Shown here piece by piece: positions 2,229 to 51,032 of a stretch of DNA of 64,000 nt (positions are counted from its first letter, which is position 1; every line of letters starts with the position of its first letter). The position numbers were made by a program, and so were the translations under genes. The notes under the pieces are model-generated. The model did no database searches. It worked only from the letters and a program-made list of their open reading frames with translations, and was not told the origin of the DNA. The stretch comes from Bryopsis sp. KO-2023 (taxonomy: Eukaryota > Chlorophyta > Ulvophyceae > Bryopsidales > Bryopsidaceae), in assembly GCA_030272585.1 (NCBI GenBank), contig BSYQ01000011.1, positions 4,340,001-4,404,000 of the forward strand. Direction: 5' to 3'.

Positions 2229-5150
2229 ATGTTCGCAGCGGTAGGAAGCTGTTTGGGGAGCGCTGCTGCGTTCCTCCTGTGCGGATGCTGCAAATGCGTA
2301 GGCGGACAAGTTTTGAAACACAGCGCGCGCGCTGGGTATTGCGCTCTCTTTCTGTTGGGAATGCTGATTGCCTGGTGCATGCGCGACTTCGTTGAGCCCT
2401 TGGCCAACAAAATCCCCAGTACGTGTTCGCCCACACAATTCCACGACCTACTGACGCACACGCTCGAGCGGAGCAAGGGTGCATTCTAGGGTTAAAATGG
2501 CCCTGGGAGTTTCGGAATCACGTCCACTGGCTTTTACAGCCTTAGATGTATAAGATGCAGTTGGGCGTTTTCACTCAGGCATCGTTGGTATACAAGACTT
2601 CGGAACAACCAACGATGTCTGAGTGAAATAGCCCAACTGCATCTTTTAAATCTAAGGCTTTTGTAAACCATTCAAACCTGGAGAAGGGAGTGGGAGGTTT
2701 CAAGAAGAAAAAGACTCCTTTCCTTGCACAATTTTTAAGTTTTTGTTGATTGTTTTGTTTTAGGCTTCCTGAAAGGTATCAGCTATTGCAGGATAACTGT
2801 TACTATTAGCAATAGCACTTATGTTTGTAATGGTGCATGAGACGATTGTTTTGATTTCTGAATTCAGGATATACGGTGCCATCTGATGCTGTGTGGATCG
2901 GAGAGCAAGCAGTTTATCGATTGACCTTCGGAAATTTCGTGAGTGAATACATCAGGGGTGCCTGCCCCCACCCCACCCCCATGCTGTTTATTATTATTAC
3001 TCAACCCCGCATTTTCCAACCAAACACTTGAAATGCATTCTTTACAGGTGACCTTTTTTCTGAAATGAAATGAAACTGAGGGGGGGGAATCCACTTGAAT
3101 GAGTTATTCCCACAACAATTTTCTAAATCAGCCCAATTTACCTCGTTCGAATTTCACTTGTGTACATTTTTTGCCTTGCAGTGTTTTTTTGGCCTTTTGT
3201 CGCTGATCCTTGTGGGGGTGAAATACAAAAGCGATAAGCGGGATGAATATATCCAGCATGGATCCTGGGCAATCAAAGGAGTGGTTTGGCTGGTGTTTTT
3301 GATTTTCCCCTTTTTCATCCCTGGAGATTTCGTCTGGTATGGTAAGTCGTATTCTCCATGTTTGGTTACCCGGTTTCTTACTTTTCCTTTCTTGCTGTTG
3401 AAAATGAAATGTTACTTCCTGGAATGAAGTTGAGGTCTGCCGGTGAAGCAGATGTGTGTGTGATTTTTTCCTTTTCCCCCCCGCCCCCCCTTTTTTTTAT
3501 ATGAATGAAATTAGGGATCTCTGTTTGAGAAGTGGTTCTCCTTATCACAGGATTTCAGGCTTGGTGCAATACTTTTGAAATAAAATAAAAAATTAAATAA
3601 AAGAGCGCATAAATAATTCTATCATCTTGTGTGGACTCCCTCTATCGCCTCCTAGAAACGAACTAGGCATCGAAAGCCAATTACTGCATCGTATTTCTGT
3701 TCACCACCAAAACTTTTAGTTAATCTGTGGGGTAGTAACTTGTCTTATTGCATAATCTTTTCTCAGGCTGGATGGCCAGGATCGGATCGGGTTTCTTCCT
3801 GATCATCCAAATGCTCATCTTGCTGGACTTCACCCATGCATTGAACGATGCCTGGTTCTCCAAAGGGGAGGAAAACAAATACTACATGTACGGTTTGCTG
3901 GCCACCACCGTCGGCCTCTTCCTCGCAACCATTGCTCTGAGTGGGGTCGCCTATTACCTGTTCAAACCGGCCGGTGCAGGCTCCTGTTCGTTGAACGTAT
4001 CGCTGATCACCTACACGCTCATAGCATGTGTGGGCTTTTCGATATTGTCGGTGCACCCGGCTGCCGCCCATGGATCTCTCTTCCCTTCCAGCGTGATCAG
4101 CTTGTACTGCATGTACCTCTGTTTGAGTGCGCTCCAGAGCGAACCGAGGGGCGATGAGTATAAGTGCAATGGACTTGGGCAAAAAATGGTGGTTTCTGGC
4201 AGTTCGGCGGTCATCGGGATGTTGCTGACGTTGGGGGCTGTGATTTACTCTGCTTTGAGGGCTGGGTCGAACACCGGCACTTTCTTCCTTGGCTCAGGTA
4301 GGGCTGTTCAGGGGGGGGGGGGACGATTTGCCGTAAGACTTATCTTTTCACAACTTGGAAATCGTGGCCAAAGGATGGCATGCTTTACACTCTGGAAATT
4401 TTTGATTAAAGGAGTGATGTAATGTGGTTACGAGGAAATTGGTTTACTAATGTTGTGGGGGTTGGGCCTTTGGACGGTCGTTCAGCCTCGATGCAATTCA
4501 TTCGAAAAGAGAATGCGCTGCTTAGTCAGCTATGTATATGTATGTTTGTTTACATGTACAGCAAACCGAATCTGTTCTATTTGCTCTCCATAATTCTGAA
4601 TGGATTTTTGTCTTCTTTTCTTAGATGAGGATGAGGAGACTGGAGGCCAGCCATTGATGGCTCCAGAAGCTGATACCTCAGCTGGTTTGGACGGAGTGTC
4701 GAATGATGCCCCCCAAGAGCAAACCACTGAGAGGAAACCAGACCGTGCTATGGATGAGTTTGAACCTGTTACCTACAACTACAGGTTGTTACCACAATGG
4801 ATTAACACACTCTCGTTGAATGCCTGCTCCGGATTTTGATTTTATGTTGATATGTTATGTTATTGTTATTATGTTATTTGTTTTGTACAAATACATGCAG
4901 ACTGGGAGCTTAGTCCAACGTTTTGGTTTGTGGTGGAATTCTACGCAGTTTCTTCCATGCGATTTTTGCGGTGGCCAGCATGTACGTTGCAATGTTGATG
5001 ACTGACTGGGGAACCAACGAGGAGGAGAAATTGATGGATGTCAGTTGGGTTTCCGTGTGGGTTAAGATGGGCTCTCAGTTTGTCACCACTGCGCTGTACA
5101 TCTGGACTCTCAGTGCCCCCCTCCTGTTCCCCGACAGAGACTTCAGTTGA
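2229..5150 (+). CDS. SERINC: Serine incorporator (SERINC/TDE1/TMS family) membrane protein
   Basis: Multipass membrane protein of the SERINC family, a lipid-scramblase-like family first linked to serine incorporation into membrane lipids. Six exons: 2229-2478, 2868-2938, 3182-3341, 3767-4297, 4625-4784 and 4949-5150, giving 457 residues, the usual family length. Diagnostic motifs in order: the Cys-rich CGCCKC N-terminus, LANKIPSTC, AVYRLTFGNF, QHGSWAIKG, FFIPGDFVW, SSVISLYCMYLCLSAL, and at the C-terminus YNYSFFHAIFAVASMYVAMLMTDW. About ten hydrophobic segments are visible. The last acceptor (ctacgcag, 4948) was chosen because it alone restores the conserved YSFFH frame. Intron 1 contains a long hairpin, listed separately. 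Complete, with no sign of damage. Confidence 0.95.
2536..2664. repeat. Long inverted-repeat hairpin in SERINC intron 1
   Basis: Two arms of about 54 nt (2536-2589 and 2608-2664) are near-perfect inverted complements around an 18-nt loop (2590-2607). The arms share gatgcagttgggc and tcactcag-catcgttggt cores with only a few mismatches. It lies wholly inside intron 1. It could be a small foldback/MITE insertion or a precursor-like RNA hairpin; no clear flanking duplication was seen. Confidence 0.85.
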
Positions 5151-44390: not shown

Positions 44391-44805
44391 TGGTTTCGGA
44401 GCTGTAATCGGTCTATTCAGTTGTTGAAAGTTCGCACGCTGGCTCGCTTAGGCGTTGAACTCGAAAAGCTCGACCTCGAACTATCCTTCAGCGATAGTTC
44501 GTTTGCAACCGCAAAAGGACAGCGAACCAGCGAGGACGCAGATACGCACTCTCACGACTTGGCACAAGGACGTGCTACTTCAGACACGTCGAGTGTGACA
44601 GACCTCGGCAAGCAAGCTAAGTGGCGTAACACGCCTTGGTTTGAAACTGACGAACACCTTTTTTTTCCGGACATATCGCGTCCTAGGAAGGACCGCAGGC
44701 ACGACATGGCTGACGTTGAAAAGATACAGAGAGTGACGAAATGGACAAGGGAGACGGCAGACTGGCTCGTCCCATATGCAGAGCTGGGCAGTAACCCGTT
44801 TGTAA

Positions 44806-45110
44806 CGCACCGTACCGTAACGCACAGGGTCGGTACAGTAACGTGTCCGGTCGGTGCACGCACCGACCGGACGTTACAACACGTTGCACACGTTACAACA
44901 ACGACCCAGTCGGTACAACAACGTCCAAGTCCGGTACAACAACGATTCGACGTTACTGTAACGCCAAAGCGTTGTTGTAACGCAGTACGTTATCAGTAAC
45001 GTCTACGCCGGCTCCTATAACGTCTGTACCGATAGAAGACGTTACAACAACGATCGATCGCGTTACGTGCACCGATTGTTGGTCGGTGTTGTACCGATCC
45101 TGATTTCCTT
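44806..45110. repeat. hAT motif array, left end
   Basis: Dense degenerate copies of gtaacg/cgttac and ggtac, many palindromic or in inverted pairs (for example cgttacaacaacg). Position just inside the terminus suggests transposase-binding subterminal repeats. Confidence 0.8.
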
Positions 45111-45276
45111 TTCACTCTACCTTGCCATGAGTGTGGCTAACTGATTGGGTGTTCTTTCTTGAACTTTCCCAGTCCAAAACCCATTCAGCAGGGGATCCCC
45201 CTGGGGGCTTATATTGAAGTTAAGAGTGCAACATGGCAAACGTACACAATCATATCATGATAACAAAGCAGTTGAT

Positions 45277-45596
45277 AAAAAAAACCCAGTTCACAAATAA
45301 AACCCAGTCAAGCAAATAAAACCCAGTCAAGCAAATAAAACCCAGTTCACTAATAAAACCCAGTCAAGCAAATAAAACCCAGTCAAGCAAATAAAACCCA
45401 GTTCACAAATAAAACCCAGTCAAGCAAATAAAACCCAGTCAAGCAAATAAAACCCAGTCAAGCAAATAAAACCCAGTTCACTAATAAAACCCAGGCAAGC
45501 AAATAAAACCCAGTTCACAAATAAAACCCAGGCAAGCAAATAAAACCCAGTTCACAAATAAAACCCAGCTCGCAAATAAAACCCAGTCAAGCAAAA
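45277..45596 (+). repeat. Minisatellite of 17 units, 18-19 bp
   Basis: About 17 head-to-tail copies of two alternating variants: aaaacccagttcac-aat (18 bp) and aaaacccagtcaagcaaat (19 bp). Each junction creates aataaa on the plus strand. It lies just beyond the transposase stop codon, within the hAT element. Confidence 0.92.
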
Positions 45597-45635
45597 GAAA
45601 CACAATCCACCCCCTCTCTGCCCCCCAAAAAAACA

Positions 45636-48600
45636 CTAGTTCCTAAAAAGGCCCTTGTTGTGTTTTATGAAACTCAGGGCTTGGACGTTGTCTGGGCTGA
45701 GGGAAGCACGGCGGGCACGAACCAGGGCTCCCGATTGGCTGAATGATCTCTCTGATTCGGCAGAGGAAGCGGGGACAACCAGGAAGTCGACAGCCACAGC
45801 CTGCAGGATTGGGTAATTCCTGCCTTCCGTGCCCCAGAACTTGAGCTGGGAACCCCGGGGCTGCATAGGGAGGGTCTCGTATGCGGTCAGCTCGCTCCTT
45901 GCCATCCCCTCAATGTCCAGCAGATTGGCGGTGGGCCCCGCCGGCATTGCCTCAGGAGGCGAATCATCGTCAGAGTCGTCCAAAAAAGACTCCTGGGGCT
46001 GCATCCCCACGTCTCCACTCCCGCCTTCGGTGTCCCCCTCATTGTTCCCCCCGAACATGTTCTTGTCCGTGGCCTTCTGCGCAGCCAGGGAAACTATTTC
46101 ATCCCTCACCTGTAATGAAACACAACATCGTTACAACAACGTAGAACATCGGTTTCAGTAACGCCAACTATCGGTACACGTAACGTCTTTAACACGTTAC
46201 AAAAACGTCCGGATCGTTACTGTACCGATCTGGTCGGTACAGCACCGACCCAATATCGGTGCAGTAACGACCCAGGTCGGTACAGTAACGATCTGGGTCG
46301 GTACAGTAACGATCCTGTTTATTTTCTCTTTCTCTTCTTCTTTAAGTGATCCACATGCACCCAAGCAATGAAAGAAAAACACAAGCAAAAGCAACACTTA
46401 CCTCCGTCATGAAAGCGTCCGCGTCGAGATATTGCGCCATCACCTTCGGAAGCTCCGCCCACGCCGGTGCATCGAACATCTCCCTGATGAACTTGTTGTT
46501 CACCGTTGGGTCCATCACCGCGAGGCATGCAGCACCGAACACCCAGTTTGGGTCGTCGATCTGGGCATACAGGTGGCATGCCAACACGGACATCGCCTCC
46601 CGGATGTCGGAGGGATGCGGGGTGTGATCGATGGTCGTCTCTGGGCACCCCCTCATGAGGTGTTTGCAGCACCTGAAGTTCATACAAAAACAAATCAACA
46701 CAGACCACAGAGAAAATCTGGCAGATTCGTAAAAAACCCACTTTACTTTTCAGCCTGAATTACTGATGTACTTGTGATTCTGCTGTGTTTATATATTAAA
46801 TATATATATATATATAAACAAAAAAAAACCTCACTTTGCTATTGGTTCTGTTTTGTTTCCTGGATTTAATTTGGATTACACACCTCAGAATGATCCTCAG
46901 CATGTCTCCACCGGTGGGGTAATCGTTCCCTTCGAGCTTCTTGGAGGTCATCGCCACCGGGAACAGGATGGTCCTCAATAGGCGGAGGGCCTCCCTGAAA
47001 ACCAAAATATCAATAAAAAAAACTTAATAAACAAACCAGAAAATCATTAAAAACAAAACAGGAAACAAACCAGAAAATCAATAAAGAAACTTAATAAGCA
47101 CAGCAGGAAATTAACTTACCAATCGGCAATCTCCAGTGGCGACTTGTACCGCTGGAACTCCACCTCGAACCACCTCTTCGCAGCCCCCTCCACATCCAAA
47201 AGACGGACGATCATGTGGAAGGTGGAGTTCCAGCGGGTGTCGCATGGGACCTTCAGCGTGAGGACCCTGTTGGGGGTGATCCATGGGAGGCCCTCGTCAT
47301 CGGTGTCGCTCTCTGACAACAGGTCCACCGCCTCCCCCTCCTTCGCCGCGCGTTGAAACTCCTCCCTCTGCAGCCTATCCAGGATTGCCTTCGACCTGGT
47401 GGATCTGTAACACAAAATCACATGACACAGAAATGTTATCGTCAAATATAAAATTAATATTTCACAAGCACACAGAAAAAACAAAAAACAAAACAAACAC
47501 CACAAACAAGAATGATACATAAGTGAACAGAAATCAGCAAATGGAATTTACCTCGACACATGCGATACAAAGGCGGTGGCCTTGTCGAGGGCCTTCTTCA
47601 GATTAGGGCTGGTGCCCCCCAGCCCAGCCAGCCATTTCCGCACCGCGGTCTGCAGCAGGTGCAACACACATGGTTGCCAGTCCCAGAAGAGAAGTCGGTC
47701 GAAGCAGCTGACTACATTGGACCCACAGTCTGTGACTATTGTGGGCCTGTAGTAGGTCAGCCCGACTTGTCCGGCAGCCTGCAGGACATGGTCCTTGATA
47801 ACTGCAACACAGGAAACAACACAGAGGTAAGAAACATTGATTACAGGAGACCGTTATGAGGAACGACTTGATGCGTTGTTGTAACGTCTTCGGTCGGTAC
47901 TGGTACCGTCTGAAACCGTTACAACAACGCATCAAGTCGTTACAGCACCGTGTAGACGTTACAACAACGCTTACACGGTATTTGCACCGACATAGGGACG
48001 GTGCTTACAACGACTGTGTTTCGTTACAACACCGTCGGGTCGTTATGCATAACGACTTCTTTTTTTTCCCACCCATAGTAAAAAAAAACCCAAACCCCCA
48101 CAAACAACTGACTTCCAAATTGACTGCTGATCATCAAGTTTAAATAAACAATATAATAACTTTTTATATTTTTGTTTCTTTCCCTCATTCACACAATCAC
48201 AAGCCCAACCCCAATTACCTTGCGCCGTCACGGACTCCTCCTCCACCGGAATTGATCCCATGCTGTATGTCTCCAAACGCCAGGCCCCACCCTCCTTCAC
48301 AGCTCCCCCAGCCACCCAGGGCGTCACCACAGTGTGGATGGTGAGGGACAGGTACTTGTCCCCTGCCCTGCTCGTCCACGCGTCACATGTGAGGGCGGGC
48401 TTGATGGCTGCCTCTTGGTAGGCCCCCATCTTCTCCTTCAGCTTGCCCAATCCCTCTTGAAAGAGTTCTTGGACCTGCACCACATCAGAATAATAATATT
48501 AAAAACAGTAGAAAACAAAACAAAACAAAACAAACAAAACAAAACAAAACACAAAACACAAAAAAGAAAAACCCAAACCAGAAAAATCCCTTACCTTCCG

Positions 48601-49564
48601 GGTGATGGTGCGACGTGAAAACTTAGGGGCCCGCGGGTTGAACAGCTTGATCATCTCAGCCCAGCCAGGCGAGTCAGCCACACTTAACGGCAGCCCCTCA
48701 CACGCAATCCAAAGGGCCACTCCCTGTGCAGCATTTTTCCACATTGGGGATTGTGGGGGCCAGGCCTTGGCCTGCACAAACTGCTCCAGCTGGGTATCGC
48801 GCTGCGAGGGGCTGCAGGTAACCACAATTAATCAGGCACAAAAGAAAAAAAAACAGACAACAGGAAATTATATGATATCAGCAGATTTGAGATCAAACCC
48901 AGTTGATGAAGAACTTACTCTGTTTGCTGGAGGCGTGCTTTTAGAGCATCCTCGCTGGTGATCCCGTGGGACTTTGCATGGCCTAAGGGCGTGGTTAGGG
49001 AAGAGTTGGAGTACGACACCAACTTGTCGCAAAGCTGGCACCGTAGAAACTTGGCCCCAGGTGTGGGTGCTTCCACCTGTGAATAGAAAAAAAAAGAAAA
49101 CACAAAAACAAATCAAATGTTGCATTCGTTATCAATACCGACATCAATGCGTTACTGCACCGATGTGTGCGTTACTGCACCGCCTATGGCGTTGCGGTAC
49201 CGTCTTTCATCGGTGTTCGTAACGCAAAAAAACCGGTGCTGCACCGGATGACGTTTTTTCTCACCTGAAGGACCCCCCCGATCGAAAACAACGCTTTCAC
49301 CCAAGCGTGCTTTGATGCCTTCCTTTTTTTGACATCGCCACCCTTTCCAGCCTCCGCCGCCCTCTTCTTCGACGACGCCGCCGTGCTAGGCCCCCCACTG
49401 CTGCCGCCACCACCCCCAGTTCTCTCCGCCTGCTCCATCACCACCTCCAACCCTGAACGCTCTTCCACCCTCGGCCCCTTGCCATGCGCGGGCTCCTGCA
49501 CTGGTCTCTCCTCTGGGCGATCGCCCCCCGCCCCACTTCCACTCACAGGCGCTCCGGAGTCCAT
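45636..49564 (-). CDS. hAT transposase with BED zinc finger
   Basis: Cut-and-paste transposase. Nine exons, every junction in phase: 49265-49564, 48919-49076, 48595-48811, 48219-48474, 47552-47801, 47120-47404, 46884-46994, 46402-46672 and 45636-46109 (773 residues). Order: a low-complexity N-terminus rich in Gly, Ser and Glu with a KKRK signal; BED-type finger (CQLCDKL...HAKSH); the TCDAWTS block with the first catalytic Asp; IVTDCGSN with the second; CDTRWNSTFHM, the hAT RW motif; and the C-terminal dimerisation block YPILQAVAVDFLVVPASSAESERSFS. No stops or shifts were seen. The gene is GC-rich and more intron-dense than many hAT transposases. Nuclear protein by inference. Confidence 0.93.
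46125..46318. repeat. hAT motif array in transposase intron 8
   Basis: About a dozen ggtacagtaacg-like units between the last two transposase exons, the same motif family as the element ends. Confidence 0.78.
47855..48060. repeat. hAT motif array in transposase intron 4
   Basis: Tandem and inverted copies of cgttacaacaacg and ggtac-type motifs within the intron between the two exons carrying the first and second catalytic Asp. Confidence 0.78.
49125..49258. repeat. hAT motif array in transposase intron 1
   Basis: Several gcgttactgcaccg-type repeats between the first exon and the BED-finger exon. Confidence 0.72.
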
Positions 49565-49619
49565 AGTGTTTTTTTGATTTTCTTTCCGTTGTTTTTGCCC
49601 TCTTTTTCGATACCGTTGA

Positions 49620-50022
49620 AGTCTACCGTAACGTGCAACAGGAAAAAAACCGACGGCAGAAACCTAGCTTAAACCGGTCACACAAACGCGGTACACATGA
49701 AAACGACAAGGAGTGGCGGCATCGTTGCTGTAACGTCCCCACACGTTGCAGTACCGCCATGTCGTTACTGCAACGTCAATACGTTGTTGTAACGAACATC
49801 GTTATTGGAACCGTGTGTGTCGGTGCAGCAACGTGTGTGGAACGTTGCAACAACGACCGTTACACGGGTGGCGCCCGTTGGCGACAACGTATTGTACCGA
49901 TTCGGTACCGATGTTGTACCGTAACGTGAAAATATCCGGTACCGTACCGTACCGTAACGACCCCTTACGGTACGGTACGGTATGTAACGTGTCGTACCGT
50001 ACCGTAGGGGGTCGTTACGGTA
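49620..50022. repeat. hAT motif array, right end and transposase 5' region
   Basis: Dense cgttgctgtaacg, gttactgcaacg and accgtaccgtaacg copies between the transposase start and the right terminus. The transposase promoter must lie within this array. Confidence 0.8.
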
Positions 50023-50566
50023 CAGCCCAGCTCTGCCCATATGCCGAGGTCACAGAGGAAGAGACCACGGAGAGAGCACGTGTCATTCTTAAGCACGTTG
50101 CGCCGACCACACATGAAGGACGCGCAATCTACAAAATGATCACTAATGCGCTGAAGGCTACAGAGTGGTTTATTCAGGACCCAGACAATCCAGAGCGAAG
50201 GATTCGACTGACTGACGAGGAACGCATAGAGACTGCGTGCTGGGATTCTATCAAGGCGAATCTAAACAATCTCCTTCCAACGGAGAGTATTCTCAGTCCA
50301 GAACAAAGGATCTTGTCGTTGAAGAAAGAAAAAGGGGAGTCTTTGTTGGCGTTCACGAGCAGGTTCAAGACTGTCTGTGACGAATATCCCCATGTGGCTC
50401 CATCGAGAAAGCTGCAGTTGTTACTAAACAAACTGCCCACGGATGTTCGAAATACATTAGCAGGATATGATATCCTGCAGACGAGTCTCGACCAAGTCAT
50501 CCAGGTTGTTCGCAGAAGAACGGATTGGTTACTCGCTGGAAATTTGAGTGATAAAGGAGTCGAGGA

Positions 50567-51032
50567 CAGAGATAGGACTTGGGCCAAAATTCTGGTCCGG
50601 CTACGGTCCGGTCCGGTTACGGTCGAGTTACGGTTCCGTATTACGGCCGTAACTCCGTACCGTAACCGGAGTAATATGTTGTTTTTACGGTACGGAACAG
50701 GTACGGTATAGCTACGGTAGCCCCTAAATCATCGTGAAGTAGTGTGGTTCAGTGCTAAAGCGTTAGGCTGTAGTCTGTAAGGTCGTGGGTTCGAATCCCC
50801 CTGGGTTCCTTTGGGTTCTCGGGACCCTGCGGGGGTTACTATTTACGGTTTACGGTTGGTACGGTGGTTACGGTCGGTACGGTCCGGTACCGGAGCAGTA
50901 CGGAGTGGTACGGTGGTCCGGTTCCGAGCACGAAAACCACTCCGGTCCGGACCGTAACTACCGTAACCGTAAGTGACCGGAGTGGGGTTACGGTACGGTT
51001 TACGGTACCGTAACCGGAAAGTCCTATCTCTG
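50567..51032. mobile_element. hAT-type MITE with an internal tRNA-like sequence
   Basis: Termini cagagataggactt on both sides in inverted orientation (14 identical bases), flanked by a perfect 8-bp duplication gtcgagga (50559-50566 and 51033-51040). It is 466 bp with no coding capacity and is built largely from ttacggt/ggtacgg motifs resembling those of the complete hAT. It is inserted in the LTR element, downstream of the larger hAT insertion. Confidence 0.9.
50735..50809 (+). other. tRNA-like (Pol III type) sequence inside the MITE
   Basis: Contains a perfect B box, ggttcgaatcc (50788-50798), and an A-box-like tggttcagtgc (50745-50755) at tRNA spacing. The T arm has one mismatch and the anticodon loop position could read GTA, but the anticodon and acceptor stems pair poorly. 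I read it as a decayed or captured tRNA-derived sequence, not a working tRNA gene. Confidence 0.6.

Follow-up and report, generated by a model that had tools for sequence, protein, structure and literature searches.

A hAT transposon in Bryopsis sp. KO-2023 carries rows of one quasi-palindromic motif at both ends and in introns 1, 4, and 8 of its own transposase gene. The intronic rows are interpreted, with a probability of about 0.5, as lattices of the sites by which the element's own ends are recognised, acting at the DNA level, maintained by selection, and serving transposase binding and negative feedback. The element lies in a 64-kb window (contig BSYQ01000011.1, positions 4,340,001 to 4,404,000), which is the whole stretch of DNA analysed and part of contig C11 of the 91-Mb genome used for searches. 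Beyond what the initial annotation of this DNA described, the arrangement recurs with other motifs in other hAT families of the genome. The element, its gene, and its arrays are placed in the window as follows.

44779..50035, minus strand: hAT element, 5257 bp, terminal inverted repeat (TIR) CAGAGCTGGGC, transposase on the minus strand
44771..44778: left target-site duplication, 8 bp, CCCATATG
50036..50043: right target-site duplication, 8 bp, CCCATATG
45636..49564, minus strand: transposase gene, ATG at 49564, stop ending at 45636, nine exons, 773 aa
49077..49264, minus strand: intron 1, at residue 100, directly upstream of the C-X2-C...H-X3-H residues
47802..48218, minus strand: intron 4 of the splice model
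46110..46401, minus strand: intron 8 of the splice model
44831..45096: left subterminal array, 11 units
49723..49949: right subterminal array, 7 units, upstream of the start codon
49127..49246: intron-1 array, 6 units, half-site period 21.0 bp
47874..48053: intron-4 array, 9 units, half-site period 21.1 bp
46129..46311: intron-8 array, 7 units, half-site period 21.2 bp

The short TIR starting with CA and the 8-bp duplication identify the element as a hAT transposon and correct its limits, which had been given as 44806-50022. Two more full copies of the family likewise have the TIR and 8-bp duplications (TCTTAGAG and ATCACTCT). The transposase gene was modelled from GT-AG splice sites and the open frame. 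The predicted reading frame is uninterrupted over 773 aa, and the intron numbering used initially agrees with this model. A hAT dimerisation domain is found at the C-terminus (Dimer_Tnp_hAT, PF05699, E 3.2e-15, residues 703-767, Pfam). C-X2-C...H-X3-H residues of a candidate BED-like finger were seen by eye in exon 2.

The repeat unit is a 13-bp quasi-palindrome, CGKTRYNRYAMCG, in which 1-3 central bases are allowed. It had been described as cgttac(n)gtaacg / ggtac. The palindromic unit is real, while GGTAC belongs to one variant of the half-site CGKTRY and is not a separate motif. All 30 exact matches to CGKTRYNRYAMCG in the window lie within the element. With 1-3 central bases there are 40 matches, all in the five arrays, so the arrays are present at both ends and in introns 1, 4, and 8 as first claimed. 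Unit counts were tested against 1000 dinucleotide shuffles per region, enrichment over shuffles being the test on which the initial annotation had staked its claim. All five regions are far above their shuffles: 11 units versus a shuffled mean of 0.017 (maximum 1) in the left subterminal region, 7 versus 0.112 (maximum 2) in the right, 6 versus 0.008 (maximum 1) in intron 1, 9 versus 0.011 (maximum 1) in intron 4, and 7 versus 0.014 (maximum 1) in intron 8. No units occur in exons, in introns 2, 3, 5, 6, and 7, or in the other 58,727 bases of the window. On the preferred reading, arrays would be confined to introns because introns are the sole non-coding DNA inside the gene.

Genome-wide, exact CGKTRYWRYAMCG occurs at 1169 places versus 126 for a reversed control. 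A host-wide motif was rejected: among 50 plus-strand CGKTRYWRYAMCG matches listed (contig C1 up to 5.12 Mb), 48 are in family-like clusters, meaning apparent fragments of the window-family element or MITE-like sequences (MITE, miniature inverted-repeat transposable element), and 2 are single. The unit is a family-specific motif repeated at both ends, like the subterminal repeats bound by hAT transposases.

The arrangement is shared by a relative, L009, which is 74-88% identical by segment and has arrays at both ends and in introns 1, 4, and 8. With the motif defined on one copy, fixed motif positions in the intronic arrays differ between the window element and L009 at 4/126 and spacers at 46/178. 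Because a one-copy definition is biased, the comparison was redone with motifs from either copy and with a four-copy majority. Using either-copy motifs and aligned bases, 40/298 motif positions changed in introns versus 42/154 spacer positions (p 0.0005), and 23/237 versus 82/402 changed at the ends (p 0.0004). Among four near-identical copies, intronic motifs changed at 3/1220 positions versus 9/712 in spacers (p 0.012), and end motifs at 3/896 versus 11/1076. Exons of these copies changed at 13/9288 positions and the remainder at 44/7602; partial copies L022 and L023 were aligned with them and left out of the counts. The motif changes more slowly than its spacers and not much more slowly than the whole element. 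The arrays have the make-up of transposase-binding subterminal repeats, as proposed initially, with the motif conserved over its spacers in introns as at the ends.

Changes at K and M positions remain T/G or A/C in 10 of 11 cases across introns and ends, and in 5 of 6 in introns. Window units are intact in L009 at 16/18 places in the ends and at 10 of the 14 intron places aligned free of gaps; 8 more intron units fall in gaps. Identity between the two elements is 0.87 in intronic motifs, 0.74 in intronic array spacers, and 0.76 at third codon positions. Outside the arrays it is 0.85 in both arrayed and plain introns, which are gap-rich, so the aligned bases there are a selected subset.

A Pfam search found at least 150 hAT dimerisation-domain matches in the genome. 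Four further families have both ends resolved and exact 8-bp duplications, making five with the window's.

L024:340-5329: famA, end motif CCGTAA
L026:5225-8994: famB, end motif CGGATA
L028:2489-9478: famC, end motifs CCGGTC and CCTGTC
L030:3377-9344: famD, end motif CTGTGC
famC element positions 1498-1954 and 3677-4076: internal arrays, in GT-AG introns
famD element positions 1424-1758 and 2259-2514: internal arrays, in GT-AG introns

Internal arrays of a family's own end motif are present in four of the five families (the window family, famA, famC, and famD). Hexamers were learned from the ends alone, and the interior bases that they cover were compared with the maximum of 30 shuffles. Coverage is 541 versus 378 in the window family, 498 versus 346 in L009, 255 versus 177 in famA, 933 versus 655 in famC, and 811 versus 567 in famD. 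Some hexamers are common to families (ACCGTA in famA and the window family, CTGTCC in famC and famD). Several cross-family combinations also exceed the shuffle maximum: the L009 set on famA (280 versus 235), the famD set on famC (780 versus 657), the window set on famC (394 versus 387), and the window and L009 sets on each other. End-motif specificity is therefore clear but not absolute.

Aligned to the window transposase, the second famC array corresponds in position to window intron 5 and the second famD array to window intron 3, and neither window intron contains a unit. Arrays are therefore gained or lost independently of introns, and by these alignments they occupy different introns in homologous genes, through gain, loss, or both. 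Introners, introns born from transposons, were rejected, as homologous window introns 3 and 5 exist without an array. The famA array lies between coding segments matching window transposase residues 430 and 440; all its sense frames are free of stops and its acceptor is not fixed, so its status as an intron is less certain.

Seven other hAT loci (L020, L021, and L032-L036) were not counted among the five families, as their two ends were not convincingly resolved. L020, L021, L034, and L035, together with second copies L038-L043, are hAT-like genes with CATACTATGGATCC-type ends, of which one was found per locus; translated members of this set have a single open frame. A related, non-autonomous-looking element starts at position 1081 of L044, with left end CAGACCTGGGC and the window family's unit; transposase matches in its 3 kb were no better than chance. 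No relatives were found in viral contigs.

Units are regularly spaced. Pooling the window element with L009 gives 71 gaps from one unit to the next; 54 of them measure 18.5-23 bp (mean 20.6, sd 1.2), close to two helical turns, and a further 11 measure 37-47 bp. With units placed at random, phasing as strong as that of the real arrays arose 0 to 2 times in 2000 trials per array, all five arrays being tested and 8 of the 9 intron-4 units used. The best half-site periods of the internal arrays correspond to one or two helical turns in all four families: 21.2, 21.1, and 21.0 bp in the window element, 21.3 and 21.3 bp in famC, 11.0 and 10.7 bp in famD, and 10.2 bp in famA. Their autocorrelation is 0.83-0.96, except in famA (0.52) and the second famD array (0.60). 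End arrays have mostly weaker autocorrelation (0.10-0.57) and periods mostly near 10-11 bp; the window ends have periods of 9.9 and 19.9 bp, and both famB ends 8.3 bp (0.52 and 0.68).

The arrays might instead act in RNA, with palindromic units folding in the pre-mRNA to control splicing or feed small-RNA production. Introns 4, 8, and 1 do fold better than dinucleotide shuffles (z -5.97, -6.67, and -3.83), and by computation retention of intron 1, 4, or 8 would cut the protein to 126, 368, or 635 aa. However, the end arrays fold comparably, and when spacers alone are shuffled z lies between -0.4 and -3.1 in 13 of 14 array sets, and all 14 remain negative. The remaining set is window intron 4, where a hairpin exceeds what the units explain (z -6.71 with spacers shuffled). 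A 39-nt inverted repeat of 90% identity (47862-47900 / 47903-47941) overlaps this array. Of 60 base pairs predicted in intron 4, just 3 have both partners changed between two sequences. The L009 sequence differs at the inverted repeat, 47862-47941. RNA structure was rejected as the general explanation, since folding is largely explained by the palindromic units and the ends fold comparably; the intron-4 hairpin is left over.

When up to one mismatch is allowed, the window element and L009 supply 79 units, and across these the K and M positions do not covary (Fisher p 0.79). Among intronic units the two positions tend towards pairing (p 0.12), and 19 of 44 units have a complementary third flanking base, a value reached by 10 of 500 shuffles. 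The two intronic arrays of famD are opposite in strand, with 12 reverse and 1 forward half-sites in the first and 18 forward and 0 reverse in the second, and would thus place different sequences in RNA. Double-stranded DNA sites are favoured over RNA action, because the famD arrays are opposite in strand and the unit halves lack significant covariation. An RNA role, splicing control included, is improbable, and nothing points specifically to splicing.

Internal insertion of the element's own MITEs had been offered initially as one origin of the intronic arrays. MITEs with the end arrays and without a transposase gene are numerous, and five of six fetched have exact 8-bp duplications and so have transposed. 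At L012:5616-6578, the right end of an element copy adjoins a MITE-sized element that belongs to the same family and has TIRs of its own; matching 8-bp flanks are absent. Nevertheless, a search for TIRs with duplications at eight internal arrays from four families gave no score above the maximum of 15 shuffles, which two famD arrays equalled; wholly eroded TIRs would escape this search. The same array places are also found in L009 despite its divergence. In a genome search with the whole element, the MITE-like matches among those listed match only its two ends. A search with the intron-4 array found eight window-family copies (the window's included), L009, and one weak place, which lies in a related short element. 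MITE insertion is not supported, because no terminal repeats or duplications above shuffles are present at the intronic arrays, and it is considered extremely improbable.

The arrays could also be a neutral by-product, in which faulty gap repair after excision copies end sequence into introns, slippage expands it, and exonic copies are lost as gene-breaking. In L009, stretches of about 62 bp are tandemly duplicated in the intron-8 array, which also has 99 bp at 85% identity in common with the intron-4 array; array blocks therefore move and expand. Some end and intron units match in spacer as well as motif, as at 45026-45052 and 47874-47900, which are 93% complementary over 27 nt. The famA array and the first famD array are nearly pure tandems, so slippage could set their period, and further tandem repeats are present in the element. 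Neutral copying does not readily account for motif positions being conserved over spacers in introns as at ends, for window and famC units keeping a 21-bp step while their spacer sequences differ, or for the same placement recurring in four of the five families. A wholly neutral origin is possible but rather doubtful. The simplest history would combine both processes: end sequence was copied during gap repair, a step that we infer, and was then retained by selection.

For the selected binding-site lattices, a mechanism can be proposed by analogy with Hermes. The transposase would bind rows of quasi-palindromic sites cooperatively through a putative N-terminal BED-like finger. As transposase accumulates, it might fill the rows in the promoter-side end array and the introns, and the filled rows might hinder transcription through the gene, so that expression would limit itself; these last two steps are the least certain. 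Negative feedback on transposase expression is our best guess, preferred because rows are present both ahead of the start codon and along the gene body, while MITEs with end rows have moved.

The opposite effect, in which the arrays raise expression as intronic enhancers or as a shield against silencing methylation, is unlikely. Arrays are CpG-dense (observed/expected 1.70-1.97 versus 0.65 in exons), a sequence in which methylation could control binding, and window intron 1 and the first famC array are towards the 5' part of the gene. Against this, window intron 8 and the famA array are far downstream. Internal rows might also be stepping stones for synapsis, letting transposase span the distance between the ends of a long element. 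At 3.77 kb, famB is the shortest of the five and lacks an internal array, and a largest gap as small as that of famC arises in 3 of 21 choices of two introns. Even spread is absent in the window element (19 of 56 choices) and famD (41 of 45); intron centres for famC and famD are approximate. A synapsis role is very unlikely.

Several observations weigh against feedback lattices kept by selection. Intronic motif (40/298) does not change much more slowly than the rest of the element, where 605/3808 positions changed between the window element and L009. The motif-versus-spacer contrast is not significant within famA, famC, or famD alone (p 1, 0.51, and 0.16), because their copies are too alike. 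The interior of famB has no array, with 39 bases covered versus a shuffle maximum of 93. Pfam recognises no BED domain in the transposase at a threshold of E 5, and the AlphaFold2 fold of exon 2 alone is poor (predicted local distance difference test score 57). Internal arrays seem dispensable in cis for short elements, because MITEs with end arrays alone have transposed. Extra sites need not matter, because Hermes with mutated inner left-end BED sites keeps ~70% activity (PMC10368747). The choice of repression over activation is a best guess.

Three side observations concern the DNA in and around the element. It sits inside retroelement-like coding sequence, as seen by eye. About 530 bp away, in the same sequence, is a 466-bp hAT family A MITE (50567-51032) with TIR CAGAGATAGGACTT and duplication GTCGAGGA; its middle is tRNA-like by eye, and ARAGORN found no tRNA there. 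Directly past the transposase stop, a tandem array of 19/37 bp (AAATAAAACCCAGTCAAGC) occupies 45277-45595 and is unrelated to the end motif.

Subterminal repeats are described for Ac (AAACGG hexamers, PMC3260210) and Hermes (AAG(T/C) repeats, PMC10368747), in both cases as short repeated sites inside both ends, cooperatively bound there by the transposase or its BED domain. In Hermes, one subterminal pair that was tested is a quasi-palindrome, like the window unit, and BED domains bind it cooperatively (PMC10368747). In these accounts the repeats are placed in end regions and no intronic rows are described. The P element limits itself by intron-3 retention and a 66-kDa repressor (PMC7776569). 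As proposed here, an intron and the element's own DNA-binding protein restrain a DNA transposon, but there they act through splicing factors and a shortened protein, and that account describes no intronic array of end sites. PiggyBat carries inhibitory subterminal sequences, so that extra DNA near its ends lowers its own activity (PMC11707139); it belongs to another superfamily, and its inhibitory sequences are described as subterminal, whereas arrays of the window element also lie in introns. No hAT with end-motif arrays in introns was found among the matches listed in searches of open-licence PubMed Central papers, which leaves the initial statement that no such hAT has been described uncontradicted. 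In Spm/En, TnpA binds subterminal repeats and regulates the element promoter. That system resembles the one proposed here in that an element protein on subterminal repeats gives autoregulation, but its sites are promoter-proximal and it belongs to the CACTA superfamily.

To our knowledge, how DNA transposons limit their own transposase is an open question. If the proposed reading is true, a row of binding sites in an intron is a self-contained feedback device. More broadly, and tentatively, at somewhat less than even odds, several hAT families may each, independently, have acquired helically phased lattices of sites for their own transposase in the introns of its gene, as negative-feedback devices that the gene carries with it; the site would change by family, with end and intron rows still matched. 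Intron arrays can be altered separately from the protein and the ends, which makes feedback testable. Even if neutral, the arrays would illustrate how introns are invaded by end sequence. The end and intron motifs that match within each family provide natural pairs for studying how hAT zinc fingers choose their sites.

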